A DNA stretch of 64,000 nt, taken from assembly GCF_036127095.1 (NCBI RefSeq), contig NZ_CP108006.1:7121501-7185500 (forward strand). The letters are read 5' to 3'. Under the pieces are notes generated by a model. The model did no database searches, had not been told where the DNA came from, and was given only the letters and a program-made list of their open reading frames with translations. Every line of letters starts with the position of its first letter. The stretch's first letter is position 1. This DNA comes from Streptomyces sp. NBC_00335. GTDB lineage: Bacteria > Actinomycetota > Actinomycetes > Streptomycetales > Streptomycetaceae. Of the stretch, positions 2,032 through 16,130 are shown in pieces. The translations under genes and the position numbers were made by a program.

Positions 2032-2882
2032 CGTGCGCCTCCGACCGTCGGGTACGGGAACTTCACGGCGACGCCGCCGTCCACGACCAGCGTCTGCCCC
2101 GTCATGTACGAGGACTGCGGCGAAGCCAGGAAGTACAGCGCCGCCGCGATGTCCCGGGGCTCCGCGACCCGGCCCAGCGGGGCGTTCTCCGCGTTGACCC
2201 GGCGCCCCTCGGGCCCCAGCAGGGCGGCGACCCGCGGGGTCCACACCACCCCCGGTGCCACCGCGTTGACCCGTACCCCGCGCGGGCCCAGCTCTACCGC
2301 CGCCGAGCGCACCAAGGAGATCAGGCCGGCCTTCGCGGCGCCGTAGGCGGCGTGCAGCGGGGCCGCGGTGAGCCCGGAGACGGAGGCGACGAAGACCAGC
2401 GGTCCGCCGCCGGCCGCGGCGACGGCCTCGCCGCCGTACTGGACCGTCAGCCAGGCGTGCCGCAGCACCAGGTCGAAGTGCCAGTCCCAGCCCTCGTCGT
2501 CCAGCTCGGGCAGAGCGGCGTACCGGGCCATGCCGACGATGTCGACGACCCCGCCGACCGGGCGGCCGCCGAGCAGCTCCGGCGCCGCGGCGAAGAGCTC
2601 CCGTACGGCCTCTCGCCGCGTGACGTCGGCGGCGTACGGGACGCCCCCGGTCTCCGCGGCGACCGCGCGGGCCCGCTCCTCGTCCACGTCCACGCACAGC
2701 ACGCGGGCGCCGCCCGCGGCCAGCGCGTGCGCGGTCTGGCGGCCGATGCCGTTGCCCGCGCCGAGCAGGACGAGGGCGCGGCCGTCGAGACGGTGCAGGG
2801 CGGCGTAGTCGGGGACGGGGGAGGTGTCGGGGCCGGTGTCGGGGGCGGAGGGGATGCCGGGGCCGCCGGGGCCCTCGCTCAC
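2028..2882 (-). CDS. Short-chain dehydrogenase/reductase (SDR)
   Basis: A 284-residue classical SDR. The Rossmann cofactor motif GAGNGIG lies at about residues 41-47, an acidic residue after the second strand (VDVDEE) favours NAD over NADP, and the active site has Ser in VASVSG and the YxxxK pair in AAYGAAKAG. The C terminus has the usual MTGQTLVVDGG. The GTG start at 2880-2882 overlaps the stop of the upstream monooxygenase (GTGA), and its own stop overlaps the next gene (ATGA), so the three genes are a tightly coupled operon. It probably oxidises an alcohol made or released by the neighbouring enzymes; the substrate cannot be read from the sequence. Confidence 0.9.
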   Translation of the reverse strand: MSEGPGGPGIPSAPDTGPDTSPVPDYAALHRLDGRALVLLGAGNGIGRQTAHALAAGGARVLCVDVDEERARAVAAETGGVPYAADVTRREAVRELFAAAPELLGGRPVGGVVDIVGMARYAALPELDDEGWDWHFDLVLRHAWLTVQYGGEAVAAAGGGPLVFVASVSGLTAAPLHAAYGAAKAGLISLVRSAAVELGPRGVRVNAVAPGVVWTPRVAALLGPEGRRVNAENAPLGRVAEPRDIAAALYFLASPQSSYMTGQTLVVDGGVAVKFPYPTVGGAR

Positions 2883-4003
2883 GCGGAGGCCTTCCGGGGC
2901 GTGTACCGGGCCAGCTCCGGTATGACTTCCTTGCCCAGGATCTCCAGGGTCCGCAGGATCTCCCGGTGCTCCAGGTACCCCCACTGGACGTAGCAGATGA
3001 GCTGGTCGACGCCGAGGTCCGCGTACCGCTTGGCCTTGGTGACGATGGTCTCCGCGTCCCCGATGAGGATCATGTCCCCGTCGCTGAACTCCCTTACGGG
3101 TACGTTCCCTTCGAGGATCGGCGTGAGCAGCGGGAAGGTCCGCTCCCGCTCCTCGGGGCTCAGGTGCGGCAGCTCCCACTCCAGGGTGAACCGCGCCAGG
3201 TTGGAGTACCACCAGGCGACCGACTCCCAGACCCGGGGTCCCGGGCCGGTGCGCGGCGGGGTGGCGTGGACCAGGGTGTAGGCGGCGACCCGGTCCGTGG
3301 TGACGTCGGTGAGGGGGCTCGGGGCGGCGGCCGCGGCCCGGTAGGCGGCCACCTGGGCGGCCATCGCCTCCAGCGGCTGCATGATCGAGAAGGAGAGCAG
3401 CCCGAGGCCGTGCGCGCCCGCGACCTCCGCGGAGCCGGGGGAGGTGGCCGCCATCCAGGCGGGCGGGTGCGGGTCCTGCACCGGCTTGGGGGTGACCATG
3501 CGGCGCGGGAAGGTGAAACGCTCCGATGCGTAGGCGAAGTACTCCTCGCGCCACATTCCGGTCACGATTTCGATGGCCTCGCGCCAGTCGTCGCGGGACT
3601 TCGCCCGGTCCACCCCGAAGGCCGCCTGCTCCATGGGAGTGGACCGGCCGGTGCCCCATTCCACCCGGCCGCCGGAGAGCACGTCGACGGTGGCGACCTT
3701 CTCCGCGATGCGCTGCGGCGGGGTGAAGGCGAAGGGGGTCAGGGTCACGCCGAAGCCCAGCCGGATCCGCTCGGTGAGTCCGGCCAGGTGCCCGAGGAGG
3801 ACCTCGGGGGCCGGGCAGTGCGAGCGGCCCTCGCGGAAGTGGTGTTCGACCGCCCAGACGGTACGGAAGCCCATCCGGTCGGCGAGCCGGATCTGCTCCA
3901 CCGCCTCCCGGTAAGCGCGCTGCTCAGCGGCCCGCTGGCCGTGCGGGTGGGCTCCCCGCCAGGGCCGCGGCACGTCGATCTCGTAGAGCACGTCCAGGTC
4001 CAT
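2879..4003 (-). CDS. LLM-class flavin-dependent oxidoreductase, first gene of operon
   Basis: A 374-residue luciferase-like monooxygenase (bacterial luciferase superfamily, TIM barrel using FMNH2 or F420). Typical features are WAVEHHFREG near residue 50, RLGFGVTL after it, and the VEWGTGRSTP phosphate-binding region. It heads the operon with the SDR and SGNH esterase that follow by 4-base overlaps. The start ATG lies at the edge of a 310-base divergent region shared with the amino-acid permease. The phased repeats there lie 57-145 bases upstream of this start, so it could share the permease's regulator. Substrate unknown; degradation of an amino-acid derived or aromatic compound is only an inference. 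Confidence 0.88.
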   Translation of the reverse strand: MDLDVLYEIDVPRPWRGAHPHGQRAAEQRAYREAVEQIRLADRMGFRTVWAVEHHFREGRSHCPAPEVLLGHLAGLTERIRLGFGVTLTPFAFTPPQRIAEKVATVDVLSGGRVEWGTGRSTPMEQAAFGVDRAKSRDDWREAIEIVTGMWREEYFAYASERFTFPRRMVTPKPVQDPHPPAWMAATSPGSAEVAGAHGLGLLSFSIMQPLEAMAAQVAAYRAAAAAPSPLTDVTTDRVAAYTLVHATPPRTGPGPRVWESVAWWYSNLARFTLEWELPHLSPEERERTFPLLTPILEGNVPVREFSDGDMILIGDAETIVTKAKRYADLGVDQLICYVQWGYLEHREILRTLEILGKEVIPELARYTPRKASA

Positions 4004-4059
4004 GGCGGCACGCTGCGGCAGATCTGACGAAGTGTCAAGAATGCGGGTCGGGATCGGCT

Positions 4060-4148
4060 GCGCAGCGATCGATCATCCCCGCGCAACAAAGGACCATCCA
4101 GGACAGATCCGCGCAACGAACAATCGCCTATGTGCAAGGATGGTGCAT
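4060..4148. promoter_or_regulatory. Phased GCGCAAC-type repeats in permease/LLM divergent region (Lrp operator candidate)
   Basis: The 310-base gap between the LLM gene and the permease holds no gene but contains boxes GCGCAGC at 4060, GCGCAAC at 4081, GCGCAAC at 4111 and GTGCAAG at 4132. These are spaced 21, 30 and 21 bases apart, close to whole helical turns. The same box recurs upstream of davA (12184-12243). Phased boxes are what an Lrp/AsnC oligomer wraps around, and an Lrp gene lies at 5803-6258. A possible -10 for the permease, TAGGCT, is at 4172-4177. Binding by that Lrp is an inference. Confidence 0.6.
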
Positions 4149-4313
4149 TACGGGCGGTATCACTCAGCTCGTAGGCTCACTCGCTGTACGTGGAGTGGCG
4201 TGGACCGCCTGCTCGCGGTCCCCCCATGCCCAGGCCCTTCGCGGCCTGCTCCTGCTCCGGACCGCTGCGGTCGACGCCTGAAACCCCACCCGCAGTGACA
4301 AAGGAGTCCCCTC

Positions 4314-5792
4314 GTGCTCGACCACGGCCAGGCGCCACCGCTCGCCCCCGCCCCCCAGGCGCCGCGCAAGCCCGCCCACCCGCTCCTGCGCCGCAAGCCG
4401 GTGGAGCAGCTGGTCGCCGAGGGCGGTCAGGGCGAGGGCGGCTCGCTGCGCCGCTCGCTCACCATGTGGCAGCTGACCATGATCAGCATCGGTGCGACGC
4501 TCGGCACGGGCATCTTCGTCGTCCTCGGCACCGCGGCCCCCAAGGCCGGCCCCGCCGTGACGATCTCCTTCATCATCGCGGGCCTGACCGCTCTCTTCTC
4601 GGCCCTCTCCTACGCGGAGCTGGCCGGATCGGTGCCGGTCTCCGGGTCCTCGTACTCGTACGCGTACGCCACCATGGGCGAGCTCGTCGCCTGGGTCTGC
4701 GGCTGGTGCCTGATCCTGGAGTACGGGGTTTCCGTCGCGGCGGTCGCCGTCGGCTGGGGCGAGTACCTCAACGAATTCCTCGACGGCACGATAGGGATCA
4801 CCATCCCCGAGAGCGTCTCCGCCCCGCTGGGCGAGGGCGGCTTCATCAACCTGCCGGCGCTCGTCGTCGTCCTGCTCGCCATGGTCTTCCTCATGCGTGG
4901 AGCCAAGGAGAGCGCCCGGATCAACTCGATCATGGTCGGCGTGAAGATCGTCACCCTGCTGCTCTTCATCGGCATCGGCGCCATGGGCATCAAGTCCGGC
5001 AACTACTCGAACTTCAACCCGCTCGGCCGGGAGGGCATCACCGCCGCGGCCGGCACCCTCTTCTTCTCCTACATCGGCTTCGACGCCGCCTCCACCGCCG
5101 GTGAAGAAGCCAAGAACCCCAAGCGCGACCTGCCCCGCGCGATCATGCTCTCGCTGCTGATCGTCACCGTCCTCTACGTCCTCGTCGCCTTCGTCGCCGT
5201 CGGTGCCATGCCGTGGCAGGACTTCGAGGGCACCGAGGCCGCGCTCGCCCAGATCATGACCGACGTCACCGGCCACAGCTTCTGGGGCGTCGTCCTCGCC
5301 GCGGGCGCCGTCGTCGCCATCGCCTCGGTCGTCTTCGCCGTGCTCTACGGCCAGACCCGCATCCTCTTCGCGATGTCCCGCGACGGCCTCGTGCCCAAGG
5401 CCTTCGGCAAGGTCAACGCGCGCACCGGCGTCCCCCGCGCGAACGTCGTGATCGTCGGCCTCTTCTGCGGACTCCTCGCCGCGACCATCCCGCTCGGCAA
5501 GCTGGCCGACGCCACCAGCATCGGCACGCTCTTCGCCTTCGGCCTGGTCAACGTCGCCGTCATCATCCTGCGCTTCACCCGCCCGGACATGCCGCGCACC
5601 TTCAAGGTGGCCCTGTTCCCCCTCACGCCGATCCTCGGCTTCCTCGCCTGCGGCTGGGTGATGTGGAGCCTCGACGCCGTCACCTGGCAGGTCTTCGGTG
5701 GCTGGATGGCCGTCGGGCTCGTGATCTACTTCCTGTACGGCATCCGCCGCTCCCGCCTGGCCGCAGCAGAACCGGCCGCAGTAGAGAAGTGA
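4314..5792 (+). CDS. APC-superfamily cationic amino-acid permease (CAT type)
   Basis: A 492-residue polytopic membrane protein with about 12 membrane segments. The N terminus carries the cytoplasmic RRKPVEQL segment typical of the CAT subgroup, followed by the first helix motif SIGATLGTGIFVVLG that binds the amino-acid backbone in APC transporters. The subgroup transports lysine, arginine and related cationic amino acids. The GTG start at 4314 follows AAGGAG at 4302-4306. The Lrp gene starts 10 bases after the stop, so the two are cotranscribed. Together with shared promoter boxes in front of the lysine-catabolic davAB genes, lysine is the best guess for the substrate. Confidence 0.88.
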   Translation: MLDHGQAPPLAPAPQAPRKPAHPLLRRKPVEQLVAEGGQGEGGSLRRSLTMWQLTMISIGATLGTGIFVVLGTAAPKAGPAVTISFIIAGLTALFSALSYAELAGSVPVSGSSYSYAYATMGELVAWVCGWCLILEYGVSVAAVAVGWGEYLNEFLDGTIGITIPESVSAPLGEGGFINLPALVVVLLAMVFLMRGAKESARINSIMVGVKIVTLLLFIGIGAMGIKSGNYSNFNPLGREGITAAAGTLFFSYIGFDAASTAGEEAKNPKRDLPRAIMLSLLIVTVLYVLVAFVAVGAMPWQDFEGTEAALAQIMTDVTGHSFWGVVLAAGAVVAIASVVFAVLYGQTRILFAMSRDGLVPKAFGKVNARTGVPRANVVIVGLFCGLLAATIPLGKLADATSIGTLFAFGLVNVAVIILRFTRPDMPRTFKVALFPLTPILGFLACGWVMWSLDAVTWQVFGGWMAVGLVIYFLYGIRRSRLAAAEPAAVEK

Positions 5793-5802
5793 TCCACCCG
5801 TA

Positions 5803-6258
5803 GTGCGACTGAACGATCTCGACGAACGCATCGTGCACGCCCTGGCCAAGGACGCCCGCCGCTCCTTCGCGGACATCGGCTCCGAGGTCGGACTCTCGGC
5901 CCCCGCCGTCAAGCGGCGGGTGGACCGGCTGCGCGCCGAAGGAGCCATCACGGGCTTCACCGTCCGCGTGGACCCCGCCTCGATGGGCTGGGAGACCGAG
6001 GGCTTCATCGAGATGTACTGCCGCCACAACACCTCGCCGGACGACATCCGGCGGGGCCTGGAGCGCTACCCCGAGGTGGTGTCCGCGTCGACCGTCACCG
6101 GCGACGCGGACGCCCTCGTGCAGATCTTCGCCTCCGACATGCGGCACTTCGAGCGGGTCCTGGAGCGGATCGCGGGCGAGCCCTTCGTGGAGCGCACCAA
6201 GTCCGTCCTCGTCCTCTCCCCGCTGCTGCGCCGCTTCACCTCGGGCGCACCGGCGTAG
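5803..6258 (+). CDS. Lrp/AsnC-family transcriptional regulator
   Basis: A 151-residue regulator. The N-terminal helix-turn-helix (RRSFADIGSEVGLSAPAVKRRV) covers about residues 19-40, and the C-terminal RAM domain follows, with the typical ASTVTGDADALVQI strand for oligomerisation and amino-acid sensing. The start is GTG 10 bases after the permease stop, so it is made from the same transcript and probably senses the imported amino acid. Phased repeats upstream of the operon and of davA are likely binding sites. It could repress or activate; the sequence does not tell. Note that a second, unrelated Lrp gene lies at 50379. Confidence 0.9.
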   Translation: MRLNDLDERIVHALAKDARRSFADIGSEVGLSAPAVKRRVDRLRAEGAITGFTVRVDPASMGWETEGFIEMYCRHNTSPDDIRRGLERYPEVVSASTVTGDADALVQIFASDMRHFERVLERIAGEPFVERTKSVLVLSPLLRRFTSGAPA

Positions 6259-6297
6259 CACCCCTGGTGCCACGCCGGGCGCCGTACGGGCCGGGCC

Positions 6298-6489
6298 TCA
6301 GGCGTGCTGCGGGACCTCGTCCTTCATCAGGCCGCGCAGCTGCTCGCGGAACTCCGGGGTGTCCGTGTGACTGTGCACGTCGACGGCGTGCTGCACGGAG
6401 GCCCGCAGCAGTTCCTCCTCGTCACCGGCGATGGTGAGGGTGCAGTTCATTTCGCTGGGGTACTCCCTGCAGTCCAGAACCTTGCGCAT
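6298..6489 (-). CDS. DUF1059 small protein
   Basis: A 63-residue protein beginning MRKVLDCREYPSEMNCTLTI, which matches the DUF1059 family: short, soluble, with two cysteines in the first 16 residues and a C-terminal helix. Family members are widespread in actinobacteria; no activity is established. The ATG is preceded by a strong GGGAGG ribosome-binding site 6 bases away. It is a single-gene unit convergent with the Lrp gene 39 bases away and downstream of the flavin monooxygenase operon, separated by a hairpin. Confidence 0.88.
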   Translation of the reverse strand: MRKVLDCREYPSEMNCTLTIAGDEEELLRASVQHAVDVHSHTDTPEFREQLRGLMKDEVPQHA

Positions 6490-6551
6490 GATCTACCTCC
6501 CGGGGTGGACGGACGCCGGCGGACTCACCTCCCACGATCCTCCTCCCGGGC

Positions 6552-6569
6552 CCCCGGCGAAAGCCGGGG
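6552..6569 (-). terminator. Hairpin after flavin monooxygenase operon
   Basis: A 7-bp perfect stem CCCCGGC/GCCGGGG with a GAAA loop begins 3 bases past the stop of the last monooxygenase gene. Position and stem fit a U-poor actinobacterial terminator. Confidence 0.55.
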
Positions 6570-6571
6570 CC

Positions 6572-7705
6572 TCACCCCCGCCGGGCCCACTCCCCGGCCA
6601 GCAGCCGGTACGAGCGCACGCGGTCGGCGTGCGCGTGCGTGATCGTGGTGATCAGCAGTTCGTCGGCGCCCGTGGCGTCCCGCAGCCGCTCCAGCTGGTC
6701 GGCGACGGTGGCCGGAGAACCGGCGAACTGCGTCTCCACCCGGTCCGCGACCAGCTCGTGGTCCGCCGCCGACCAGTCCCGGGTCAGCGCACGGGCCTCC
6801 TCGGGCGCGGGGAAGGGGATCGCCCCCTCGCCGGACCGGATGCTGTGCACCCACGGCGCGTACCCGGCGGCCAGCTCCCGGGCCTCGGCGTCGTCCGGGG
6901 CCACCACGACATCGGCGGACACGGTCAGGTGCGGCCGGTCCAGCCCGCCCGGTCCGGCCGAGGGCTTGAAGGCCGCCCGGTAGGCCTCGGCGGCTTCCAG
7001 CACGCTCGCCGGGCTGACGTGGTAGTTCGCCGCGAACCGCAGCCCGTTCGCGCCGGCCGTCTCCGCGCTCACCCCGGCGCTGCTCCCCAGCACCCACACC
7101 TGGACCTCGGCGCCCTCCCCGGGCACGGCGTGCGCCTCCACGCCCTCCGGCGAGCGGTACTCCCCGCGCAACAGGGCCAGTACGTCGCCCACTTGCTCGG
7201 AGTACTCCTGCGCCGTGGCCCCCGGCAGCTGCAACAGCCGCTGCTGGAGCGCGATCCGCGGGTGATCGCGCAGGTGGGCGAAGGAGAAGGGCTTCGGTAT
7301 GCGCAGCCCGTTCGCGGTGGTGTACGCCACCGGCGGCTCGGCCCCGGCACGGCCGGCCGGCGGGCCGCCCCCCGAACGCCCCAGCCCCAGGTCGATCCGC
7401 CCCGGGTGCACCGCGTCCAGCAGGCCGAACTCCTCGACCGTCGACAAGGCCGTGCGGTGCCCGAGCTGGACCGCCCCCGAGCCGATCCGGATCGTGGAGG
7501 TGGCCGAGGCGGTCAGCGCCAGTACGACGGCGGGCGAGGTCCCCGCCACACCCGGATTCAGGTGGTGCTCGGCGAACCAGTAGCGGGCGTAGCCGAACCG
7601 CTCGCTCTGCCGGGCGAGGTCGACGCTGTTGCGGAGTGCCTCGGCGGCCGTGGAGCCGGAGGCTACCGGGACGAGGTCGAGGACTCCGAGCGGGATACCG
7701 GGCAT
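6572..7705 (-). CDS. LLM-class flavin-dependent oxidoreductase, third gene of sulfur-type operon
   Basis: A 377-residue luciferase-like protein. The start MPGIPLGVLDLVPV, then RYWFAEHHLNPGVAG, RIGSGAVQLGHR and RIDLGLGRSGG are the usual strands and phosphate-binding loop of the LLM family (MsnO8-like subgroup). It probably uses reduced FMN to oxygenate a small substrate in the cytoplasm. It is the last of three monooxygenase genes read from the same promoter and leader peptide, 48 bases after the NtaA-type gene. Context argues for oxidation of an organosulfur compound as a sulfur source; the specific substrate is unknown. Confidence 0.87.
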   Translation of the reverse strand: MPGIPLGVLDLVPVASGSTAAEALRNSVDLARQSERFGYARYWFAEHHLNPGVAGTSPAVVLALTASATSTIRIGSGAVQLGHRTALSTVEEFGLLDAVHPGRIDLGLGRSGGGPPAGRAGAEPPVAYTTANGLRIPKPFSFAHLRDHPRIALQQRLLQLPGATAQEYSEQVGDVLALLRGEYRSPEGVEAHAVPGEGAEVQVWVLGSSAGVSAETAGANGLRFAANYHVSPASVLEAAEAYRAAFKPSAGPGGLDRPHLTVSADVVVAPDDAEARELAAGYAPWVHSIRSGEGAIPFPAPEEARALTRDWSAADHELVADRVETQFAGSPATVADQLERLRDATGADELLITTITHAHADRVRSYRLLAGEWARRG

Positions 7706-7753
7706 GGTGTTCCCCCTTCTTCGGTGACGGGCTTGGATGCGGTCCTGCGGAGG

Positions 7754-9121
7754 TCAGCCGTGCGCCGGGGCGAGCGCGCGCGGCGCCGCCAGCCCGAGGT
7801 GGTCGCGCAGCGTCGGGCCTTCGTACTCCCGGCGGAACACCCCGCGCTCCTGGAGCAGCGGGACGACGGTGTCCGCGAAGGCGTCGAGCCCGCCGGGGGT
7901 CAGGTGGGGGACCAGGATGAAGCCGTCGGCCGCGTCCGCCTGGACCAGGGCGTCGATGCCCTGGGCGACGGTGAGGGGCGAGCCGACGAAGGACTGCCGC
8001 TCGGTCGTCTCCATCACCAGCTCGCGGATCGACAGCCCCCCGGCGGCGGCCCGCTCCCGCCACTCACGGGCCACGGCCAGCGGATCCCGGTGCATGCGCA
8101 CGCTCGCCCGGCCCAGCGCGATGGTGTTCTCCCCGGGCACCGGATCCACGTCCGGCAGCGGCCCGTCCGGGTCGTAGCCCGACAGGTCCCGGTTCCACAC
8201 GTGCTCCAGGCGCTTGATCGCGGTCGCCCCGCTGACCTGCTGGAGCCGCACCTCGCGGGCCAGCTCCTGCGCCTCGGCGTCGGTGTCGCCGAGCACGAAG
8301 GTCGCCGCCGGAAGGATCTTCAGCTCGTCGGGGGTGCGCCCGTAGCGGGCCAGGCGCCCCTTGACGTCCGCGTAGAAGGCGCGGCCCGCCTCCAGCGTGC
8401 CGTACCGCCCGAAGATGGCGTCCGCGGCGGCCGCCGCGAACTCCCGCCCCTCGTCCGAATCGCCCGCCTGGAAGACGACCGGCCGCCCCTGGGGGCTGCG
8501 CGGCACGTTGAAGTGCCCGGAGATGTCGAACTGCTTGCCCAGGTGGGCGAAGGCGCCGGGGTTCGCGTCCCGCAGGAACTCCCCGGAGACCGGGTCGGCG
8601 AGGATCTCGCCGCCGTCCCACGCGTCGAAGAGCTCGTGGGCGGTGTCCAGGAACTCCCGTGCCCGCTCGTAGCGTTCCTCGCGCGGCAGGAACCCGCCGC
8701 GCCGGAAGTTCTCCCCGGTGAAGGCGTCCCAGGAGGTCACCACGTTCCAGGCGGCCCGGCCCCCCGACAGATGGTCGAGGGAGGCGAACTGGCGGGCCAC
8801 CTCGTACGGTTCGTTGAAGGTGGAGTTGATGGTGCCGGCCAGCCCGAGGTGCTCGGTGACGGCGGCGAGCGCCGCCAGCACCGTGAAGGTGTCGGGGCGG
8901 CCCACCACGTCCAGGTCGTAGATCTCACCGCCCTGTTCGCGCAGGCGCAGGCCCTCGGCGAGGAAGAGGAAGTCGAACTTCGCGCGCTCGGCGGTCCGCG
9001 CGAAATGGAGGAAGGAATCGAAGTCGATCTGGCTCCCGGCGGCCGGGTCGCTCCACACGGTGGTGCTGTTGACCCCCGGGAAGTGCGCCGCGAGATGGAT
9101 CTGCTTGAGCGGCTTGCTCAT
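7754..9121 (-). CDS. NtaA/DmoA/SnaA-type FMN-dependent monooxygenase
   Basis: A 455-residue enzyme of the large-subunit class of two-component FMN monooxygenases (nitrilotriacetate, dimethylsulfide, desulfurisation enzymes). Diagnostic segments include IHLAAHFPGVNSTTVWSDP at residues 8-26, LFLAEGLRLRE, SGGRAAWNVVTSWD, and a DPVPGENTIALG stretch. Such enzymes need FMNH2 from a separate reductase, and none is encoded in this operon. It lies 25 bases after the first monooxygenase gene and 48 before the third. The leader peptide upstream and the family membership suggest use of sulfones, sulfides or sulfonates when sulfate or cysteine is scarce; that is an inference. Confidence 0.9.
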   Translation of the reverse strand: MSKPLKQIHLAAHFPGVNSTTVWSDPAAGSQIDFDSFLHFARTAERAKFDFLFLAEGLRLREQGGEIYDLDVVGRPDTFTVLAALAAVTEHLGLAGTINSTFNEPYEVARQFASLDHLSGGRAAWNVVTSWDAFTGENFRRGGFLPREERYERAREFLDTAHELFDAWDGGEILADPVSGEFLRDANPGAFAHLGKQFDISGHFNVPRSPQGRPVVFQAGDSDEGREFAAAAADAIFGRYGTLEAGRAFYADVKGRLARYGRTPDELKILPAATFVLGDTDAEAQELAREVRLQQVSGATAIKRLEHVWNRDLSGYDPDGPLPDVDPVPGENTIALGRASVRMHRDPLAVAREWRERAAAGGLSIRELVMETTERQSFVGSPLTVAQGIDALVQADAADGFILVPHLTPGGLDAFADTVVPLLQERGVFRREYEGPTLRDHLGLAAPRALAPAHG

Positions 9122-9146
9122 GGCTGCTGTAGGTCCTTCCTGGGGA

Positions 9147-10340
9147 TCAGGCGGCGGGGGAAGCGGCGGCGGCGGGAGCCGCCGGGGCGGCGGCGTACCG
9201 GCTCGCCGGGCGCGGCAGCCCCAGCAGGCCGCGGAGCGAGGAGGCCTCGTAGGCCCGCCGGAACGCCCCGCGCCGCTGGAGCTCCGGGACCAGGCCGCGG
9301 GTGATCGCCGGCAGGTCGTGGGCGAGCACCCCCGGACGCAGCCGGAAGCCGGTCAGCCCCGCCTCCCGCCCCTCCAGCAGCAGGTCGGCGAGGTGCGCCG
9401 GAGTCCCCGCGAAGACGGGGGCGTCACTCGTGTACGCGGTCCCGTGCGCGGCGTCCAGCCGCTGGAGCCTTCGCTCCGCCGCGGCCGGCTGCTCGTCGAG
9501 GAAGACCGTCAGCTCACCGAACAGGTGCGGGGTGCCGGGGAGCGCGGCGACGGCGGTGCGGATCTCGCCGGCATCGTGCGCGGGCACGTAGCCGATGTCG
9601 GCCGACCGGGCGAGGAAGGGGTACACGGCGGCGTCCGATGCCAGCGCGCTCACCGGGGGCAGGCCCTGGGGAGGCCGCGGGGTGATCGAGGGGCCCTTCA
9701 CGCTGAACCGGGGGCCCTCGAAGTCGATGTAGTGCAGCTTGGCCCGGTCGATGAACCGTCCGGTGGCCGCGTCGCGGATCTCCGCGTCGTCCTCCCAGCT
9801 GTCCCACAGCCGCCGGACCACCTCGACGTGATCGGCGGCCTCCCCGTACAGCTCGGCCGGGTCCAGGGGCGCCGTACGGCGCCCGAAGTGGCGCACCTCG
9901 TCCGGCCGTTCGGAGATCTGGATGCGCAGCCCGGCGCGGCCGCGGCTCACGTAGTCCAGGGTGGCGAGCGCCTTGGAGACGTGGAAGGGCTCGGTGTGGG
10001 TGGCCACCACGCTCGGCACCAGCCCGATGTGCCGGCTCAGCGGCGCCACCCGGGCGGCGACCAGCACCGCGTCGAGCCGGCCCCGCACCAGGTCGGTGCG
10101 GCCGTCGGGCCCGGCCGGATCGGTGGACTGCAGGCTCAGCGAGTCCTCGAAGGTGACGAAGTCCAGCAGTCCGGCCTCGGCCTCGGCGACGAGCGCGGCC
10201 CAGTAGCCGGCCGTGAACAACAGGCCGGGATCGGCGCCCGGTTCGCGCCAGGCGGCGGGATGCCAGCCCGCCCCGTCGAGGGCCACGGCGAGGTGGAGCG
10301 CGGGGGAGGTGGCGGGGGAGGGGGAAGGGTGCACGGGCAT
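9147..10340 (-). CDS. LLM-class flavin-dependent monooxygenase, first structural gene of the operon
   Basis: A 397-residue luciferase-like protein; segments LHLAVALDGAGWHPAAWR, DFVTFEDSLSLQ, IGLVPSVVATHTEPFHVSKA and SRGRAGLRIQISERP fit the NtaA-like half of the superfamily. The C-terminal 15 residues are Ala/Pro-rich. An AGGAGGC ribosome-binding site precedes the ATG at 10338-10340. It follows a 36-residue leader peptide by 69 bases and is followed by two more monooxygenases, so one transcript makes three flavin enzymes. The likely role is oxidation of an organosulfur substrate. A nearby reductase and ABC importer, common in such clusters, are absent. Confidence 0.87.
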   Translation of the reverse strand: MPVHPSPSPATSPALHLAVALDGAGWHPAAWREPGADPGLLFTAGYWAALVAEAEAGLLDFVTFEDSLSLQSTDPAGPDGRTDLVRGRLDAVLVAARVAPLSRHIGLVPSVVATHTEPFHVSKALATLDYVSRGRAGLRIQISERPDEVRHFGRRTAPLDPAELYGEAADHVEVVRRLWDSWEDDAEIRDAATGRFIDRAKLHYIDFEGPRFSVKGPSITPRPPQGLPPVSALASDAAVYPFLARSADIGYVPAHDAGEIRTAVAALPGTPHLFGELTVFLDEQPAAAERRLQRLDAAHGTAYTSDAPVFAGTPAHLADLLLEGREAGLTGFRLRPGVLAHDLPAITRGLVPELQRRGAFRRAYEASSLRGLLGLPRPASRYAAAPAAPAAAASPAA

Positions 10341-10409
10341 GACGGAACTGCCTCCTGATCGGACGGCGCGGCGAAGGGCGAAACTGCTCGCGGAAACGCG
10401 GAACGCTGA

Positions 10410-10520
10410 TCAGGAACGACAGAGGGAACCGGCGACGCGCAGGAGGTCGATGTGCGCGCGGGAATGCAGGTGGACGGCGCGGCGCGGGGTGAGGGCGTCA
10501 CCGGCGGTTCGTACGGTCAT
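10410..10520 (-). CDS. Leader peptide of 'HIDLLRV' type upstream of flavin monooxygenase operon
   Basis: A 36-codon frame from ATG 10518-10520 to TGA 10410-10412. Its C-terminal part reads HSRAHIDLLRVAGSLCRS. This HIDLxRVxxxLC ending is the hallmark of short actinobacterial leader peptides found in front of sulfur-assimilation genes, where ribosome movement at the Cys codon is thought to control the downstream genes. A G-rich stretch precedes the ATG. The TGA is 69 bases before the first monooxygenase start, with a small CGCG-TTTC-CGCG hairpin between. Too short to be an enzyme; the peptide itself is probably of no further use. Confidence 0.8.
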   Translation of the reverse strand: MTVRTAGDALTPRRAVHLHSRAHIDLLRVAGSLCRS

Positions 10521-10563
10521 GCCCTGCCACCCCCCTTCACCTCGTGTTCCGGTCGTCCCTCCG

Positions 10564-10612
10564 ACGCTAGATCAGGGGGGACCGGGCCACAACGGATGGA
10601 ATGTCAATCCGT
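10564..10612 (-). promoter_or_regulatory. Promoter and operator-like inverted repeat of the monooxygenase operon
   Basis: On the minus strand TTGTGG (10592-10587) and TAGCGT (10569-10564) are 17 bases apart, a fair housekeeping-type promoter about 45 bases before the leader peptide. The -35 box touches a perfect inverted repeat ACGGAT-N9-ATCCGT at 10592-10612, a likely regulator site. Confidence 0.5.
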
Positions 10613-10613
10613 G

Positions 10614-11321
10614 TTAATGCTTCGTGTCGGGCGTGCGAAGCCCGATGAACACCGGCTCGCGGCGCAGGGTGAAGCCCATCGAGAGGTACAGCCCCACGGC
10701 CGAGGTGTTCTGCGCCGCGGCATGCAGGAACGCGGTGTCCCCGCGCTCCTCCACGGCGGCCACGACCGCGCGGATCAGCCGCCCGGCGAGCCCTTCGCCC
10801 CGGTGCTCGGGGTGCGTGCACACGGCGCTGATCTCCGACCAGCCCGGCGGCCGCATCCGCTCGCCCGCCATCGCGACGAGCCGGCCGCCGCGGCGGATCC
10901 CGAGGTACGTGCCCAGCTCGACGGTGCGCTCCCCGAACGGGCCCGGCCGGGTCAGCTCGACCAGCTCCAGCATCTCGGGCACGTCGGCGGGCCCCAGCAG
11001 GACCGCCTCCGGTTCCTCCTTGCCCCGTACCGCCCGGCCGTCCAGCTGTACGCCCGGTATCGACATCAGCGTCTCCCAGCCCGCGGGCGGGGTCGGCAGC
11101 CCGGTCACCCAGACCTCCCGACCGGGACCGGCGAGCTCGGCCAGATCCGCCCAGGCCCGCGGATCCTCCGGGTCGGCCAGCGCGGCGAAGGGCGAGACGC
11201 CGGCCGCGTACCGGGCGGCGAGTCCGGCGGGACCGGTCTCGGCGAAGCCCCGGTGCGGGCCGTCGAGCGCGGCCCAGACGGGATTGTCGAGGACCGCGTC
11301 GGGCCGGGACGCACGGGACAT
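10614..11321 (-). CDS. GNAT-family N-acetyltransferase
   Basis: A 235-residue protein whose second half is a GNAT domain: ISAVCTHPEHRGEGLAGRLI carries the acetyl-CoA pyrophosphate loop (R/Q-x-x-G-x-G/A, here RGEGLAG), and SAVGLYLSMGF is the usual last strand-helix. The N-terminal 100 residues are typical of the FR47-like subgroup. Start at ATG 11319-11321. The frame stays open upstream through a 12-bp tandem repeat that would add a Gln-Val-Pro-Ala tail, so a longer form starting at a GTG or ATG there cannot be excluded. Acceptor unknown. It lies between two leader-peptide units but reads toward the monooxygenase promoter. Confidence 0.82.
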   Translation of the reverse strand: MSRASRPDAVLDNPVWAALDGPHRGFAETGPAGLAARYAAGVSPFAALADPEDPRAWADLAELAGPGREVWVTGLPTPPAGWETLMSIPGVQLDGRAVRGKEEPEAVLLGPADVPEMLELVELTRPGPFGERTVELGTYLGIRRGGRLVAMAGERMRPPGWSEISAVCTHPEHRGEGLAGRLIRAVVAAVEERGDTAFLHAAAQNTSAVGLYLSMGFTLRREPVFIGLRTPDTKH

Positions 11322-11347
11322 GAGCGGGAGGTTCCTTCCCTCGGGCG

Positions 11348-11413
11348 CAGGCGCTTGCGCAGGTGCTTGTGCGGCCACTTGCGCAGGCACTTGTACGGGC
11401 ACTTGTACGGACT
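11348..11413. repeat. 12-bp tandem repeat upstream of the GNAT gene
   Basis: CTTG recurs at 11354, 11366, 11378, 11390 and 11402, exactly every 12 bases, with unit consensus GGCACTTGYRCG. On the minus strand, in frame with the acetyltransferase, it encodes VPVQ/APAQ tetrapeptides. Similar 12-bp arrays occur at 11661, 17196, 44140 and 53730. Confidence 0.85.
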
Positions 11414-11499
11414 CGTGCGGGCGGTCTTGACGGCCCCTGGCGGTGCCATGAGACTGCGAACGCCAGCCTAATGGGGGTGGCGGACAGGAAGGGGCCCCG

Positions 11500-11616
11500 G
11501 TGGACCAGCTCATCACACCCTCCTCCTCCACCACCCCGCTGCGCCGCTCCTGGCTCACCCGCCGGCTGCACATAGATCTCCTCCGCGTCTGCAGTGCCAC
11601 GGCCCCGGCCTCCTGA
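11500..11616 (+). CDS. Second 'HIDLLRV' leader peptide, upstream of the CxxC protein gene
   Basis: A 38-codon frame from GTG 11500-11502 to TGA 11614-11616. It contains RRSWLTRRLHIDLLRVCSA, with the cysteine codon directly after the HIDLLRV core. GGAAGGGG stands 7 bases before the GTG. The TGA is 44 bases before the ATG at 11661, which places it as a cis-acting leader for that gene. As with the leader at 10410, the family is associated with sulfur or thiol metabolism in actinobacteria; attenuation by cysteine supply is inferred. Confidence 0.78.
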   Translation: MDQLITPSSSTTPLRRSWLTRRLHIDLLRVCSATAPAS

Positions 11617-11660
11617 GGCCCCGCCGAGCACGCGCGTACGCACACAGACCGAGGAGACCC

Positions 11661-11770
11661 ATGTCCCAGACCCATGTCCAGACCCATGTCCAGACGCCTG
11701 CCCCGAGCCCTGCCCAGACCCATGTCCCGAGCCTTGTCCAGAGCCCTGCCCAGACCCCCGTCCCGGCGCC
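11661..11770 (+). repeat. 12-bp tandem repeat at the 5' end of the CxxC gene
   Basis: About nine units related to CAGACCCATGTC, in frame from codon 2. The first units are nearly identical, later ones diverge (CAGAGCCCTGCC). Confidence 0.85.
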
Positions 11771-12143
11771 CGCCCGGAGCCGCGTCCGGGCCGCCGTCCT
11801 CCGGGGCCGGATCGGGACCGGCTTCTCGCCGGTACCGCACCGCTACCGGCTCTACGTGGCCGCCGACGACTGTCCGCGCTGCCTCGGCGTCACCGCCGCC
11901 TTCGCCGAGCTGGGCCTCCGGGACACCGTGGCCCTGACCGTCCTGCGGCCCGGCTCCGACCCCGCGGGGCACGACGCGCTCCGCCGCGCCTACGAGGCCG
12001 CCGGGCACGACCACGACGGCACGCTCACCGTCCCCGCCCTCTGCGACGGCTGGAGCGGCCGGGTGGTCTCCAACCACGCCCCCGACATCCTGGAAGACCT
12101 GCGCCGGCTGAGCGTCCACCCGGCCTTCCGCCCGGCCTCGTAA
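11661..12143 (+). CDS. Stand-alone thioredoxin-fold domain with CxxC, related to the N-terminal part of ECM4/YqjG
   Basis: A 160-residue protein. Residues 1-40 are a low-complexity tail built from 12-bp repeats (QTHV, QTPA, SPAQ tetrapeptides). Residues 58-155 resemble only the N-terminal thioredoxin fold of glutathionyl-hydroquinone reductases: HRYRLYVAADDCPRCLGV, then TVPALCDGWSGRVVSNHAPD, which corresponds to their TVPVLWD...IVSNES region. The family's CPWA is replaced by CPRC (Cys71, Cys74), a true CxxC pair, and the C-terminal helical domain is missing. Actinobacteria use mycothiol instead of glutathione, so a changed thiol or quinone redox role is plausible. Preceded by a leader peptide. 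The function is not established. Confidence 0.7.
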   Translation: MSQTHVQTHVQTPAPSPAQTHVPSLVQSPAQTPVPAPARSRVRAAVLRGRIGTGFSPVPHRYRLYVAADDCPRCLGVTAAFAELGLRDTVALTVLRPGSDPAGHDALRRAYEAAGHDHDGTLTVPALCDGWSGRVVSNHAPDILEDLRRLSVHPAFRPAS

Positions 12144-12183
12144 AACCCCCGGAAGGGCCTTTCGGACCGTTCGTACGGGCTCC

Positions 12184-12243
12184 GCGCAACGAATCGCCGC
12201 CCACGCCCGCCAATGCGCAACGAATCGATGCGCGGCGCGCAAC
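12184..12243 (+). promoter_or_regulatory. GCGCAACGAATCG repeats upstream of davA (Lrp operator candidate)
   Basis: Boxes GCGCAAC begin at 12184, 12215 and 12237; the first two are followed by GAATCG, the third by GGTCA. Spacings of 31 and 22 bases match those of the boxes before the permease (21, 30, 21). The 177 bases from 12144 to 12320 hold no gene, only these boxes and the davA promoter. Confidence 0.62.
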
Positions 12244-12320
12244 GGTCACGGCTTGTCCCGGTCGAACGCGCGAACGTACCGTCTAAGGACCCCCACCCCT
12301 CCTGCCACAGAGGTACGCCC

Positions 12321-13121
12321 ATGCCCCCGCTGCGCACCGCCCTCCTCCAGAGTTCCGGACGGCTCGGCGACACCGCCGACAACCTGAAGGCGCTCGAAGA
12401 GGCCGCGGCACGCGCCGCACAGGCGGGGGCCGGGCTCCTCGTGACCTCGGAGATGTTCCTGACCGGCTACGCGCTGGAGATCGAGGACATCGCGCGGCTC
12501 GCCGAACCGGCCGACGGCATGTCCGCCCGCGCCATCGGCGAGATCGCCCGCCGCCACGGGCTGGCCGTGCTCTACGGCTACCCCGAGCGGGACGGCGACG
12601 CCGTCTACAACGCGGCGCAGCTCGTCGGCGCCGACGGGGAGCGGCTGGCGAACTACCGCAAGACCCACCTCTTCGGCTGCTTCGAGCAGGCGGCCTTCAC
12701 CCCCGGCGACACCCCGGTGGTCCAGGCGGACCTCGGCGGCCTGCGCGTCGGCGTGATGATCTGCTACGACGTGGAGTTCCCCGAGAACGTCCGGGCGCAC
12801 GCGCTGGCCGGCACCGACCTCCTCCTGGTGCCGACCGCGCAGATGCACCCGTTCCAGTTCGTCGCCGAACAGCTGGTCCCCGTACGGGCCTTCGAGAACC
12901 AGATGTACATCGCGTACGTCAACCGCACCGGCCCGGAAGGCGAGTTCGAGTTCGTCGGCCTCAGCTGCCTGGCCAGTCCCGACGGGGTCACCCGGACCCG
13001 GGCCGGCCGCGGCGAGGAGCTGGTGTTCGGCGAGGCCGACCCCGAGCTGCTGCGCGTCTCGCGCGAGACCAACCCGTACCTGCGCGACCGGCGGCCCGGT
13101 CTGTACGCCTCGCTCGTCTGA
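12321..13121 (+). CDS. davA: Carbon-nitrogen hydrolase, probable 5-aminovaleramidase
   Basis: A 266-residue nitrilase-superfamily amidase with the Glu-Lys-Cys triad: Glu44 in SEMFLTGY, Lys114 in NYRKTHLFG, Cys148 in VGVMICYDVEFPEN. Length and layout match Pseudomonas DavA (about 264 residues), which hydrolyses 5-aminovaleramide to 5-aminovalerate. The gene is 74 bases upstream of a davB-like L-lysine 2-monooxygenase that makes exactly that amide, which is the main reason for the name. The ATG at 12321 follows an AGAGG site; an upstream in-frame start would run through the operator boxes. Hydrolysis of another arylalkyl amide is the main alternative. Confidence 0.8.
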   Translation: MPPLRTALLQSSGRLGDTADNLKALEEAAARAAQAGAGLLVTSEMFLTGYALEIEDIARLAEPADGMSARAIGEIARRHGLAVLYGYPERDGDAVYNAAQLVGADGERLANYRKTHLFGCFEQAAFTPGDTPVVQADLGGLRVGVMICYDVEFPENVRAHALAGTDLLLVPTAQMHPFQFVAEQLVPVRAFENQMYIAYVNRTGPEGEFEFVGLSCLASPDGVTRTRAGRGEELVFGEADPELLRVSRETNPYLRDRRPGLYASLV

Positions 13122-13195
13122 CCGCGGCCCGCGAACCGCCGCCGCTCCCCCTGCTTGCCCTTCCCCCTGCCCCACCCCGCTAGGAGTCGTACCCC

Positions 13196-14893
13196 ATGAC
13201 GTCCACGGTGCCCACCACCGCCGTCCCGCACAGCGACGGATCGATGCCGATCACGATGTTCGGACCGGACTTCCCCTACGCGTACGACGACTTCCTCGCC
13301 CACCCGGCGGGCCTCGGGCAGATACCGGCGACCGAGCACGGCACCGAAGTCGCCGTCATCGGCGGCGGGCTGTCCGGCATCATCTCCGCGTACGAGCTGA
13401 TGAAGATGGGCCTCAAGCCCGTCGTCTACGAAGCCGACCAGATCGGCGGCCGGCTGCGCACCGTGGGCTTCGAGGGCGCGGGCACCGAGGAGCTGACCGC
13501 GGAGATGGGCGCCATGCGCTTCCCGCCGTCCTCCACGGCCCTCCAGCACTACATCGACCTCGTCGGCCTGGTCACCGAGCCCTTCCCGAACCCCCTCGCC
13601 GAGTCCACCCCCTCGACGGTCGTCGACCTCAAGGGCGAGACCCACTACGCCGAGACCATCGCCGACCTCCCGCAGGTCTACCGCGACGTGTCCGCCGCGT
13701 GGAATGCCTGCCTGGACGAGGGCGCCGACTTCTCCGACATGAACACCGCCATGCGCGAGCGGGACGTCCCGCGCATCCGGGAGATCTGGGCGAAGCTCGT
13801 CGAGAAGCTCGACGACGAGACCTTCTACGGGTTCCTCTGCAAGTCCGAGGCCTTCAAGTCCTTCCGCAAGCGCGAGATCTTCGGCCAGGTCGGCTTCGGC
13901 ACGGGCGGCTGGGACACCGACTTCCCGAACTCCATCCTGGAGATCCTGCGCGTCGTCTACACCGAGGCCGACGACCACCACCGCGGCATCGTGGGCGGCT
14001 CGCAGCAGCTCCCGCTGCGCATGTGGGACCGCGAGCCCGAGAAGATCGTGCACTGGGCCCAGGGCACCTCCCTCTCCTCCCTGCACGGCGGCGCCCCGCG
14101 CCCGGCGGTCACCCGCCTGCACCGCACGGCGGGCAACCGCATCACGGTCACGGACGCCACCGGTGACATCCGCACGTACCGCGCCGCGATCTTCACGGCC
14201 CAGTCCTGGATGCTGCTCTCGAAGATCGCGTGCGACGACACGCTCTTCCCGATCGACCACTGGACGGCGATCGAACGCACCCACTACATGGAGAGCTCCA
14301 AGCTCTTCATCCCGGTGGACCGTCCGTTCTGGCTGGACAAGGACGAGGAGACGGGCCGCGACGTCATGTCGATGACCCTGACCGACCGCATGACCCGCGG
14401 CACGTACCTCCTGGACAACGGTCCCGACAAGCCGGCCGTCATCTGCCTGTCCTACACCTGGTGCGACGACAGCCTGAAGTGGCTGCCGCTGTCCGCGAAC
14501 GAGCGGATGGAGGTCATGCTCAAGTCCCTCGGCGAGATCTACCCGAAGGTCGACATCCGCCGCCACATCATCGGCAACCCGGTGACCGTGTCCTGGGAGA
14601 ACGAGCCCTACTTCATGGGCGCGTTCAAGGCCAACCTGCCGGGCCACTACCGCTACCAGCGCCGCCTGTTCACCCACTTCATGCAGGACAGCCTCCCCGA
14701 GGACAAGCGCGGCATCTTCCTCGCGGGCGACGACATCTCCTGGACGGCGGGCTGGGCGGAGGGCGCGGTCCAGACGGCCCTCAACGCCGTCTGGGGCGTC
14801 ATGCACCACCTCGGCGGCTCCACGGACTCCACGAACCCCGGCCCGGGCGACGTCTACGACGAGATCGCCCCGGTCGAACTCCCGGAGGACTGA
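13196..14893 (+). CDS. davB: Flavin amine oxidase, probable L-lysine 2-monooxygenase
   Basis: A 565-residue FAD enzyme. After a short N-terminal tail comes MFGPDFPYAYDDFLAHPAG, very close to the start of Pseudomonas DavB, then the FAD-binding EVAVIGGGLSG (residues 51-61) and GGRLR. Further DavB-like stretches are EIFGQVGFGTGGWDTDFPNS, TSLSSLHGGAPR, and the C-terminal GIFLAGDDISWTAGW and NPGPGDVYDEIAPV. DavB oxidatively decarboxylates L-lysine with oxygen to 5-aminovaleramide. The preceding davA product would cleave this amide. GGAG stands upstream of the ATG. Later steps (5-aminovalerate transaminase, glutarate semialdehyde dehydrogenase) are not in the window. Tryptophan or phenylalanine 2-monooxygenase are the alternatives, judged less likely. 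Confidence 0.83.
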   Translation: MTSTVPTTAVPHSDGSMPITMFGPDFPYAYDDFLAHPAGLGQIPATEHGTEVAVIGGGLSGIISAYELMKMGLKPVVYEADQIGGRLRTVGFEGAGTEELTAEMGAMRFPPSSTALQHYIDLVGLVTEPFPNPLAESTPSTVVDLKGETHYAETIADLPQVYRDVSAAWNACLDEGADFSDMNTAMRERDVPRIREIWAKLVEKLDDETFYGFLCKSEAFKSFRKREIFGQVGFGTGGWDTDFPNSILEILRVVYTEADDHHRGIVGGSQQLPLRMWDREPEKIVHWAQGTSLSSLHGGAPRPAVTRLHRTAGNRITVTDATGDIRTYRAAIFTAQSWMLLSKIACDDTLFPIDHWTAIERTHYMESSKLFIPVDRPFWLDKDEETGRDVMSMTLTDRMTRGTYLLDNGPDKPAVICLSYTWCDDSLKWLPLSANERMEVMLKSLGEIYPKVDIRRHIIGNPVTVSWENEPYFMGAFKANLPGHYRYQRRLFTHFMQDSLPEDKRGIFLAGDDISWTAGWAEGAVQTALNAVWGVMHHLGGSTDSTNPGPGDVYDEIAPVELPED

Positions 14894-16130
14894 CCCCGGC
14901 GTGCGCCGCCGCTCCTGAAGCCGGAACCGCCTTCAGGAGCAGGGCGGGGGTGATCAGCATGAGGAGACCGGCCACGGCGATCGCGGTGCGGGGGCCGGCG
15001 AAACCCGCCAGCACGCCCCACAGCCCCGTCATGGCCGCGATCGTCGCCTTGCCGGTCACCGACCACGCCGTCAGGGTGCGGGCGATCCGGTCCGCGGGCG
15101 TCCGGTCGAGCCGGTAGGCGGCGAACACCGGATTGAACACGCCCATGCACGTGATCAGCCCGAACTCGACCACGATGACCAGTACGAGCCCGATCGCGCC
15201 CGGCCGGACGAAGGCCAGACCGGCCGACCAGCACGCCCGCAGCGTCCCGGCGGCGAGCAGGACCCTGCGCCGCCCGTACCGGGCGACGAGCCGCCGGGCC
15301 AGCCGGGCGCCGATGACGCCCCCGACACAGGGCAGGCCGAACGCGAGGCCGTACTGCCAGGGGGCGAACCCGAGCGGGCCGAGCATGAGCACGGCGAGCA
15401 GGGGCAGGGTCGCCATGATCAGGCCGCTGACCAGGACCGTGTTGAAGAACAGGGGACGCAGCGTCGGGTGGGCCAGGATGAACCGCCACCCGTCGAGCAG
15501 ATCGCCGGGACGGAACCGGGCCCGCTCGGCTCCGGTGCGCACGGGGCGCTGCTCGCCGCCGCCGATCGCACGGATCCCCGCGGCCGAGAGCAGATAGCTG
15601 ACCGCATCGGCCGTCACGGTCGTCACCGGTCCGAACAGCCCGATCGCGGCCGTGCCGACCGGCGGTCCGATCAGGGTGGCGGTCCAGTTCGTCGACTCGA
15701 ACCGTCCGTTCGCGACGAGCAGGTCCTGCGCCGGCACCAGCGCCTTCAGGTACGCGCCACCGGCCGCGCCGAAGGCGATGTCGGCCGCGCCCACGACGAC
15801 GGACACCACCAGCAGCTGGACGAAACCGAGCAGACCGAGTGCGTACGCGGCGGGGACGCTCATCAGCGCCACGAACCGGATCAGGTCCATCGCGACCATC
15901 ACCGGCCTCTTGCGGCGAAACTCCACCCACGGCCCGAGCGGCACCGCCACCGCGGCCCCCACCGCGAGCCCCGTGGCGGCCAGCACCGACACCTGGACCG
16001 GCCCGGCGTGCAGCACCAGGATCGCGATCAGCGCGAACGCGTCGAACGCGAGCCGCGTACCGAACGTGCTGACCCCGTACGCCGCCCACAGCCACCCGAA
16101 CCGTCGGCCAAGAGACCTCCTGCCCGCCAT
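14799..16130 (-). CDS. MFS transporter, divergent from LysR gene
   Basis: A 443-residue, 12-segment major facilitator protein of the Enterobactin-exporter-like MFS_3 type (FGTRLAFDAFALIAILVL in TM1, GVIGARLARRLVARYGRR between TM8 and TM9). Drug or metabolite efflux is likely; the substrate is unknown. The ATG at 16128-16130 follows AAGGGGG. After the last membrane segment (LLMLITPALLLKA) the frame continues for about 45 Arg/Pro/Ser-rich residues across the davB terminator hairpin and 95 bases into the 3' end of davB on the opposite strand. That tail looks unconstrained and may reflect loss of the original stop. Probably controlled by the LysR protein encoded divergently. Confidence 0.87.
   Translation of the reverse strand: MAGRRSLGRRFGWLWAAYGVSTFGTRLAFDAFALIAILVLHAGPVQVSVLAATGLAVGAAVAVPLGPWVEFRRKRPVMVAMDLIRFVALMSVPAAYALGLLGFVQLLVVSVVVGAADIAFGAAGGAYLKALVPAQDLLVANGRFESTNWTATLIGPPVGTAAIGLFGPVTTVTADAVSYLLSAAGIRAIGGGEQRPVRTGAERARFRPGDLLDGWRFILAHPTLRPLFFNTVLVSGLIMATLPLLAVLMLGPLGFAPWQYGLAFGLPCVGGVIGARLARRLVARYGRRRVLLAAGTLRACWSAGLAFVRPGAIGLVLVIVVEFGLITCMGVFNPVFAAYRLDRTPADRIARTLTAWSVTGKATIAAMTGLWGVLAGFAGPRTAIAVAGLLMLITPALLLKAVPASGAAAHAGVSPPGVRPGRSRRRRRPGRGSWSPWSRRGGA
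14911..14940 (+). terminator. Hairpin after davB
   Basis: Perfect 10-bp stem GCTCCTGAAG/CTTCAGGAGC with a 10-base loop, 17 bases after the davB stop. It lies inside the distal coding frame of the convergent MFS gene. Confidence 0.65.

Follow-up and report, generated by a model that had tools for sequence, protein, structure and literature searches.

The question raised by this locus is whether a single Lrp/AsnC-type regulator governs import, sensing and breakdown of lysine from two promoters that lie apart in a Streptomyces genome. The window, the whole stretch of 64,000 nucleotides that was analyzed, covers 7.12-7.19 Mb of the 9.0-Mb genome of Streptomyces sp. NBC_00335 and contains an operon of an amino-acid permease gene and an lrp gene and, further downstream, a davA-davB (davAB) operon probably serving lysine breakdown. 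A preliminary description of this DNA had noted phased GCGCAAC boxes upstream of both operons. All five exact boxes were confirmed on the forward strand, as were the spacings (21/30/21 and 31/22 bp) and two weaker boxes at the permease promoter, of which GTGCAAG is the conserved third box and GCGCAGC an optional fourth (Table 1). The extension GAATCG, said often to follow the box, was found after davA boxes 1 and 2 and not after the other three exact copies. The comparisons described below indicate that the boxes are almost certainly functional and suggest that a dedicated Lrp, probably sensing lysine, probably acts from a rigid upstream array to activate import and the first two steps of breakdown.

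The window contains nine copies of GCGCAAC, five of them at the two promoters, and shuffled sequences average 13, so the signal of this 7-mer lies in clustering and spacing and not in number. Conservation was examined at 80 loci (main set), with the permease tested in 66 and davA in 75, and at a second set of 30 davB loci, which may share species with the main set and in which davA was tested in 29 (L089 being without davA). Upstream regions were tested where the match to the gene product began within residue 6 and at least 150 bp of upstream sequence was present; among the 14 main-set loci at which the permease was left out, L032 and L034 were inspected by hand and carry three correctly spaced boxes. 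GCGCAA in the forward sense was present at most 300 bp upstream of the gene start in 61/66 permease and 98/104 davA regions. Three GCAA motifs at the exact spacing (the triple) were present in 63/66 permease regions, 70/75 main-set davA regions and 29/29 second-set davA regions, compared with none on the reverse strand, two, one and none respectively when the triple was read backwards, and an average of at most 0.02 regions in shuffled sets. Spacing was 30 + 21 bp in all 63 permease promoters with a triple and 31 + 22 bp in 69 of the 70 main-set davA promoters. The optional fourth site, 21 bp upstream of box 1, read GCA at exactly this distance in 30/63 permease promoters and GCAA in 15, the nearby rate being 0.018 per position, and was not seen at davA promoters. 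Loss of the boxes from the promoters of relatives had been named in the preliminary description as evidence that would speak against a shared regulon; boxes, spacing and distance to the promoter were found to be conserved at both promoters. Clustering of a GC-rich word by chance, with no function, would fit the lack of enrichment of the 7-mer in the window as a whole. This explanation was rejected, and is given practically no weight, on the basis of exact spacing across genera, the near absence of triples from shuffled promoters and a complete lack of control matches in 61 Streptomyces genomes (see below).

When individual boxes were tested for a 15-bp semi-palindrome, the best symmetry center of davA boxes 1 and 2 lay 7 bp past the start of GCAA, giving the near-palindrome GCaaCGA-A-TCGccGC, with the remaining four boxes less symmetric or centered elsewhere. 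In the alignment, box 2 of davA reads GTCA instead of GCAA at four loci of the Streptomyces violaceusniger group (L034, L036, L040 and L051).

The array is also held at a fixed distance from a putative promoter. Counted from GCAA of box 3, a hexamer beginning with TT starts at +14 bp and a TANNNT hexamer at +38 bp, and both were present in 58/63 permease and 70/70 + 29/29 davA promoters with a triple. A generic sigma-70 scan called no promoter at either place, and the assignment of -35 and -10 elements therefore rests on conservation. No box overlaps the -10 element, the whole array being upstream of the -35 element at a fixed distance, and the hexamers themselves are poor. This combination suits an activator, and activation rather than repression is considered likely. 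In the mechanism proposed, the Lrp would be the dedicated regulator of two operons, permease-lrp (import and sensor) and davAB, the products of the latter oxidizing lysine to 5-aminovaleramide and then hydrolyzing this to 5-aminovalerate. The three GCAA-start sites of each promoter, three and two helical turns apart, would lie on one face of the DNA, with a distance of 14 bp from the start of the last to the poor -35 element. On this array an Lrp oligomer would be assembled with one dimer per site, the promoter-proximal dimer adjoining RNA polymerase, and transcription would be activated once lysine had bound to the Lrp. The arrangement of one octamer per array, with a dimer at each site, is predicted with evenly balanced confidence. 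A rival explanation is that the Lrp binds the boxes and represses both promoters, with lysine relieving repression. Lrp/AsnC proteins can repress, as described for SCAB_Lrp2 and its own gene (PMC11609053), box 3 ends beside the -35 element such that an oligomer could exclude polymerase, and an upstream array is compatible with repression too. However, no box overlies the -10 element and the promoter register is fixed in nearly all triple-bearing loci, as would be expected for contact between activator and polymerase, and repression is considered unlikely.

Table 1. Boxes, putative promoter elements and genes of the two operons (positions in the window)
Feature	Position	Strand	Remarks
Optional fourth box, permease promoter, GCGCAGC	4060..4066	+	21 bp upstream of box 1
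Box 1, permease promoter, GCGCAAC	4081..4087	+	
Box 2, permease promoter, GCGCAAC	4111..4117	+	30 bp past box 1
Box 3, permease promoter, GTGCAAG	4132..4138	+	21 bp past box 2
Putative -35 hexamer, permease promoter, TTACGG	4148..4153	+	TT at fixed distance in 63/63
Putative -10 hexamer, permease promoter, TAGGCT	4172..4177	+	TANNNT at fixed distance in 58/63
APC-family amino-acid permease (CAT/BcaP-like), 492 aa	4314..5792	+	PF13520; substrate not readable from sequence
Lrp/AsnC regulator, 151 aa, proposed box reader	5803..6258	+	PF13404, PF01037; co-occurrence with boxes
Box 1, davA promoter, GCGCAAC	12184..12190	+	15-bp near-palindrome 12186-12200
Box 2, davA promoter, GCGCAAC	12215..12221	+	31 bp past box 1
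Box 3, davA promoter, GCGCAAC	12237..12243	+	22 bp past box 2
Putative -35 hexamer, davA promoter, TTGTCC	12253..12258	+	TT at fixed distance in 70/70 + 29/29
Putative -10 hexamer, davA promoter, TACCGT	12277..12282	+	TANNNT in 70/70 + 29/29
davA-like amidase (carbon-nitrogen hydrolase), 266 aa	12321..13121	+	PF00795, E 1.8e-49
davB-like lysine 2-monooxygenase (flavin amine oxidase), 565 aa	13196..14893	+	PF01593; 3we0

A loose three-box pattern had no matches in the 9.0-Mb genome other than those at the two promoters; as its reversed control scored four, the places of these matches are informative and their number is not. A strict three-box pattern gave 81 matches in 56 of 61 Streptomyces genomes and none with the reversed control. 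These matches lay before davAB (53), before permease-lrp (26), before a displaced davA (one) and elsewhere (one), and with 79/81 heading davAB or permease-lrp the regulon comprises, within the strict pattern, these two operons. The displaced davA, apart from davB, is that of G012 (L178), and the match elsewhere (G060:C11:191877) lies in repetitive sequence and is probably due to chance. Among the five genomes lacking a strict match, G008 and G058 carry a permease triple one base off the pattern, and G037 and G050 are both without davB and close lrp. In the fifth, G010 (L185), an in-frame TGA interrupts the lrp match, which has a long branch in the tree, and there is no triple in the stretch, possibly reflecting decay of regulator and array together. 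A wider regulon was rejected, since none of the seven other copies of GCGCAACGAA in the NBC_00335 genome (L081-L087) has GCAA at any array distance on its strand; three of the seven lie inside a likely reading frame as judged by composition. A single 9.03-Mb contig of G012 (L178-L180) carries davA at 8.92 Mb, where boxes are present, and davB at 3.15 Mb, where there are none; this wide separation reflects either rearrangement between the two operon genes or misassembly.

Co-occurrence of the array with the Lrp was assessed in 150 genomes of the family; an lrp was called close at E of at most 1e-70, and DavB copies of about 61% were disregarded. All three features (close lrp, davB and strict boxes) were found together in 75 genomes, and 63 had none of them. 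The reversed control of the strict pattern matched 23 times in 20 of these genomes, and lone strict matches in this set can therefore be due to chance. In four genomes lrp and davB are not accompanied by a strict match; three of these have a davA triple that departs from the pattern by a base, and the contig of the fourth has 139 bp ahead of davA. davB was present in 79 of the 80 genomes with close lrp, and G281 (71% complete) has lrp and boxes with no davB. Boxes without close lrp or davB were found in six genomes, adjoining an Lrp of 57-63% identity in five and with no Lrp match nearby in G183, where they were taken for chance. Conversely, G235 (L225) has kept davAB, whereas a search at E 1e-40 gave no lrp and the stretch is without a triple; this genome represents a natural case of davAB without close lrp or boxes. 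The five Streptomyces without davB (G037, G050, G093, G122 and G166) are also without close lrp, and a search for boxes in the first three found none. In another family of the order, ten davAB stretches (DavB approximately 70%) have neither an Lrp match nor a triple, L189 having little upstream sequence, and in the two of these genomes that were inspected the array is present at a related Lrp elsewhere. Second DavB copies (L201-L204, 61-63%) likewise have no triple, Lrp match or davA match beside them. The array follows this Lrp rather than davAB as such, and on account of this co-occurrence the boxes are very probably read by this Lrp. Conserved boxes at both promoters and co-occurrence with the Lrp thus support the proposal made in the preliminary description that import, sensing and breakdown are under one local Lrp.

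That description had also presented the regulon as split over two loci. This holds for the NBC_00335 genome but not in general, as lrp lies within 2 kb of davA in 51 of 75 main-set loci (within 400 bp in 15, 401-2000 bp in 36 and more in 24). The order permease-lrp-davA-davB is common among relatives, indicating that the split is a local state. The boxes had been placed upstream of the permease-lrp operon, which is correct for the permease; in Streptomyces, lrp is covered only through the permease operon. Where no permease lies directly in front of lrp, boxes were found within 700 bp in 0/10 main-set loci, and where permease and lrp are more than 400 bp apart (four main-set loci) the permease has the triple in 2/2 tested and lrp in none of the four. 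A separate array before lrp was accordingly rejected for Streptomyces. The exception is in another genus, where G186 (L232) has an array 329 bp before lrp itself and one at davA, with no permease match near, which raises the question of direct autoregulation of lrp; in G197, also of another genus, the array is at permease and davA. Four genomes (G002, G021, G045 and G059) have the array 138-360 bp before davB with no davA match between, davA elsewhere not having been searched for.

Arrays were also found with more distant relatives of this Lrp. Among 14 stretches with an Lrp of 57-65% identity and no davAB match, ten have a triple, in all cases spaced 31 + 21 bp, and L212-L214 have boxes 1 and 2 only. 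As judged by eye, a TT hexamer was present at +14 in all ten, and most had a TA-type hexamer at +38 or one base earlier. In L217 the array precedes an operon encoding dimethylargininase, ornithine aminotransferase and a major facilitator superfamily protein and ending in the regulator gene. The array lies before dimethylargininase and ornithine aminotransferase genes in L209, before ornithine aminotransferase-type genes in L206 and L218, and before a pyridoxal phosphate (PLP) decarboxylase gene in L210 and L211. Both ddah and rocD were found at L209, L217 and L220, with L206 and L218 tested for rocD only, and a family search gave no identity for the array-linked genes of L207, L208, L215 and L216. 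In L210 a gene for a PAS-GAF-SpoIIE phosphatase (2789-4585, reverse strand) follows the PLP decarboxylase gene downstream of the array. Eight paralogue stretches with an Lrp of approximately 55% (L220-L223 and L239-L242) have no triple. In the Lrp tree, dav-type rows form one clade (support 100/99) among box-bearing relatives.

These relatives bear on the identity of the effector. Presence of their arrays at ddah/rocD-type or PLP decarboxylase genes, together with a permease family that is not lysine-specific, would fit the same circuit responding to arginine, ornithine or 5-aminovalerate instead of lysine. Against this stand the presence of davB in nearly all genomes with close lrp, the closeness of DavB to a solved L-amino acid oxidase/monooxygenase and the single, well-supported clade of dav-type Lrps. 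Neither ddah nor rocD was found beside the Lrp of the window, whose neighbors are the permease and davAB. One of these other effectors is considered less probable than lysine or its direct product, which is modestly favored on the basis of gene context. We tentatively suggest, at slightly less than even confidence, that array and promoter may form a frozen activation cassette, in which an Lrp clade kept the layout (three and two turns, with box 3 14 bp before the -35 element) while lysine breakdown by davAB replaced arginine/ornithine breakdown or a PLP decarboxylase as its target. Regulator and effector would thus have changed and the DNA geometry not, with some members losing the array later.

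A number of observations weigh against a simple correspondence between this Lrp, its array and the two operons. The exact triple is missing from five of the 75 main-set davA promoters, and in G190, G181 and G255, all of other genera, it was found at davA only. G028 (L200) has davAB and the array with no close lrp found (best E 3.3e-44); this assembly consists of approximately 1300 contigs, and on the contig in question 139 bp precede the array, on the side where lrp is often located, so that the gene may be missing from the assembly. Among the related Lrps, L219 (approximately 60%) has no array, and of nine rows without array in the tree four lie outside all box-bearing rows and five among them, indicating repeated loss or gain of the array. 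A recognition-helix explanation of array loss is not clean, since L239 and L240 share the stretch SAPAVKRRVDRLR yet are without array and the box-bearing L216 and L217 read SASAV. Finally, the genomes do not count as independent: many of the all-absent cases come from genera g7 and g18, and relatedness makes the number of independent events smaller than the genome count. The array in G028 and the absence of arrays from some relatives with a near-identical helix would fit reading of the boxes by another protein, such as a global nitrogen or amino-acid regulator, with lrp merely a neighbor, and box reading by the Lrp is itself a prediction from sequence. However, a global regulator would be expected to have many genomic sites and strict matches are nearly confined to these operons, lrp and boxes are both lost from G235 with davAB kept, davAB away from this lrp is without boxes in 10/10 loci of the other family, and in 10/14 stretches the array accompanies related Lrps at other genes. 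Another reader is thus regarded as quite improbable, and reading by the Lrp encoded at this locus is preferred.

The gene assignments on which the proposed circuit depends are as follows. The Lrp has an AsnC-type helix-turn-helix domain (PF13404, E 8.3e-16) and a ligand-binding domain (PF01037, E 4e-15), both above gathering scores, and the top match among main-set loci, from Streptomyces sp. AP-93, is 100% identical. Its best NCBIfam match is the LysM equivalog NF040947, of which it is not a member (65.5 bits against a cut-off of 180). The permease scored 552.4 bits against TIGR00909, slightly below the cut-off of 556.8, and its best solved relative is 5oqt. For the davB product, 550 residues were aligned to 3we0, a solved 'L-amino acid oxidase/monooxygenase' (E 5.9e-240), and on the basis of this alignment the names davA and davB are reasonable. 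We take 3we0 to prefer lysine, and lysine is presumably the substrate of the davB product. The start of davA was placed at 12321 and not at an upstream ATG at 12213 by alignment of homologues, most of which align from residue 1, and davA and davB are separated by 74 bp. Searches of 3900-14900 for a lysine riboswitch or other known RNA control gave no Rfam match at gathering score.

Several features of the proposed circuit resemble described systems. For BarR from Sulfolobales, both the regulator gene and an amino-acid metabolism gene are described as carrying several 15-bp semi-palindromic sites in helical register, DNA is thought to wrap an octamer, and Ah-BarR mixes two spacing lengths, said not to have been observed earlier within one Lrp-DNA complex (PMC10201364). 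Multiple phased sites at a regulator gene and an amino-acid gene are common to both systems; the effector of BarR is beta-alanine, however, and its archaeal promoter has other spacings, whereas the sites described here are 30-31 and 21-22 bp apart from start to start and occur at two operons, each time at a set distance from a bacterial -35/-10-like pair. The mixed three-turn/two-turn array is conserved here at many promoters. In Mycobacterium tuberculosis the Roc cluster and the regulator gene Rv2324 rise with arginine, and the text available gives no binding site (PMC4569260). There too a regulator gene adjoins genes for the permease and the breakdown of a basic amino acid, and array-bearing relatives were found here at ddah/rocD-type genes as well; the amino acid is arginine in that system and probably lysine here, and the likeness is one of gene context. 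The Streptomyces and Saccharopolyspora regulators SCO3361, SACE_Lrp, SACE_5717, SLCG_Lrp and SCAB_Lrp2 belong to the same family, several act on a neighboring gene and answer amino acids, and they control antibiotic, thaxtomin or development genes, with davAB absent from these accounts as far as they are available (PMC11609053, PMC11033246). In Pseudomonas putida, DavB monooxygenase and DavA amidase are the same two enzymes, whereas the regulators studied there, CsiR (GntR family) and GcdR (LysR family), act downstream on glutarate breakdown (PMC6667623).

The preliminary description knew of no davAB-CAT-Lrp regulon in Streptomyces, and we likewise found no description of davAB control by an Lrp in this genus in open-access literature (titles and abstract beginnings), subscription literature being mostly outside the search. 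If the proposal is correct, lysine breakdown by davAB in Streptomyces would acquire a named switch with an operator traceable across the family, and the related Lrps would provide a natural series, with the same geometry at different pathways, for how Lrps change effector and keep the DNA site. Both promoters would also be candidate parts for lysine sensors. Both loci are flanked and separated by four genes for luciferase-like monooxygenases (PF00296), at 2879-4003 (reverse strand), 6572-7705, 7754-9121 and 9147-10340 (reverse strand). Three of these form a block between lrp and davA, genes which lie nearer each other in many relatives.

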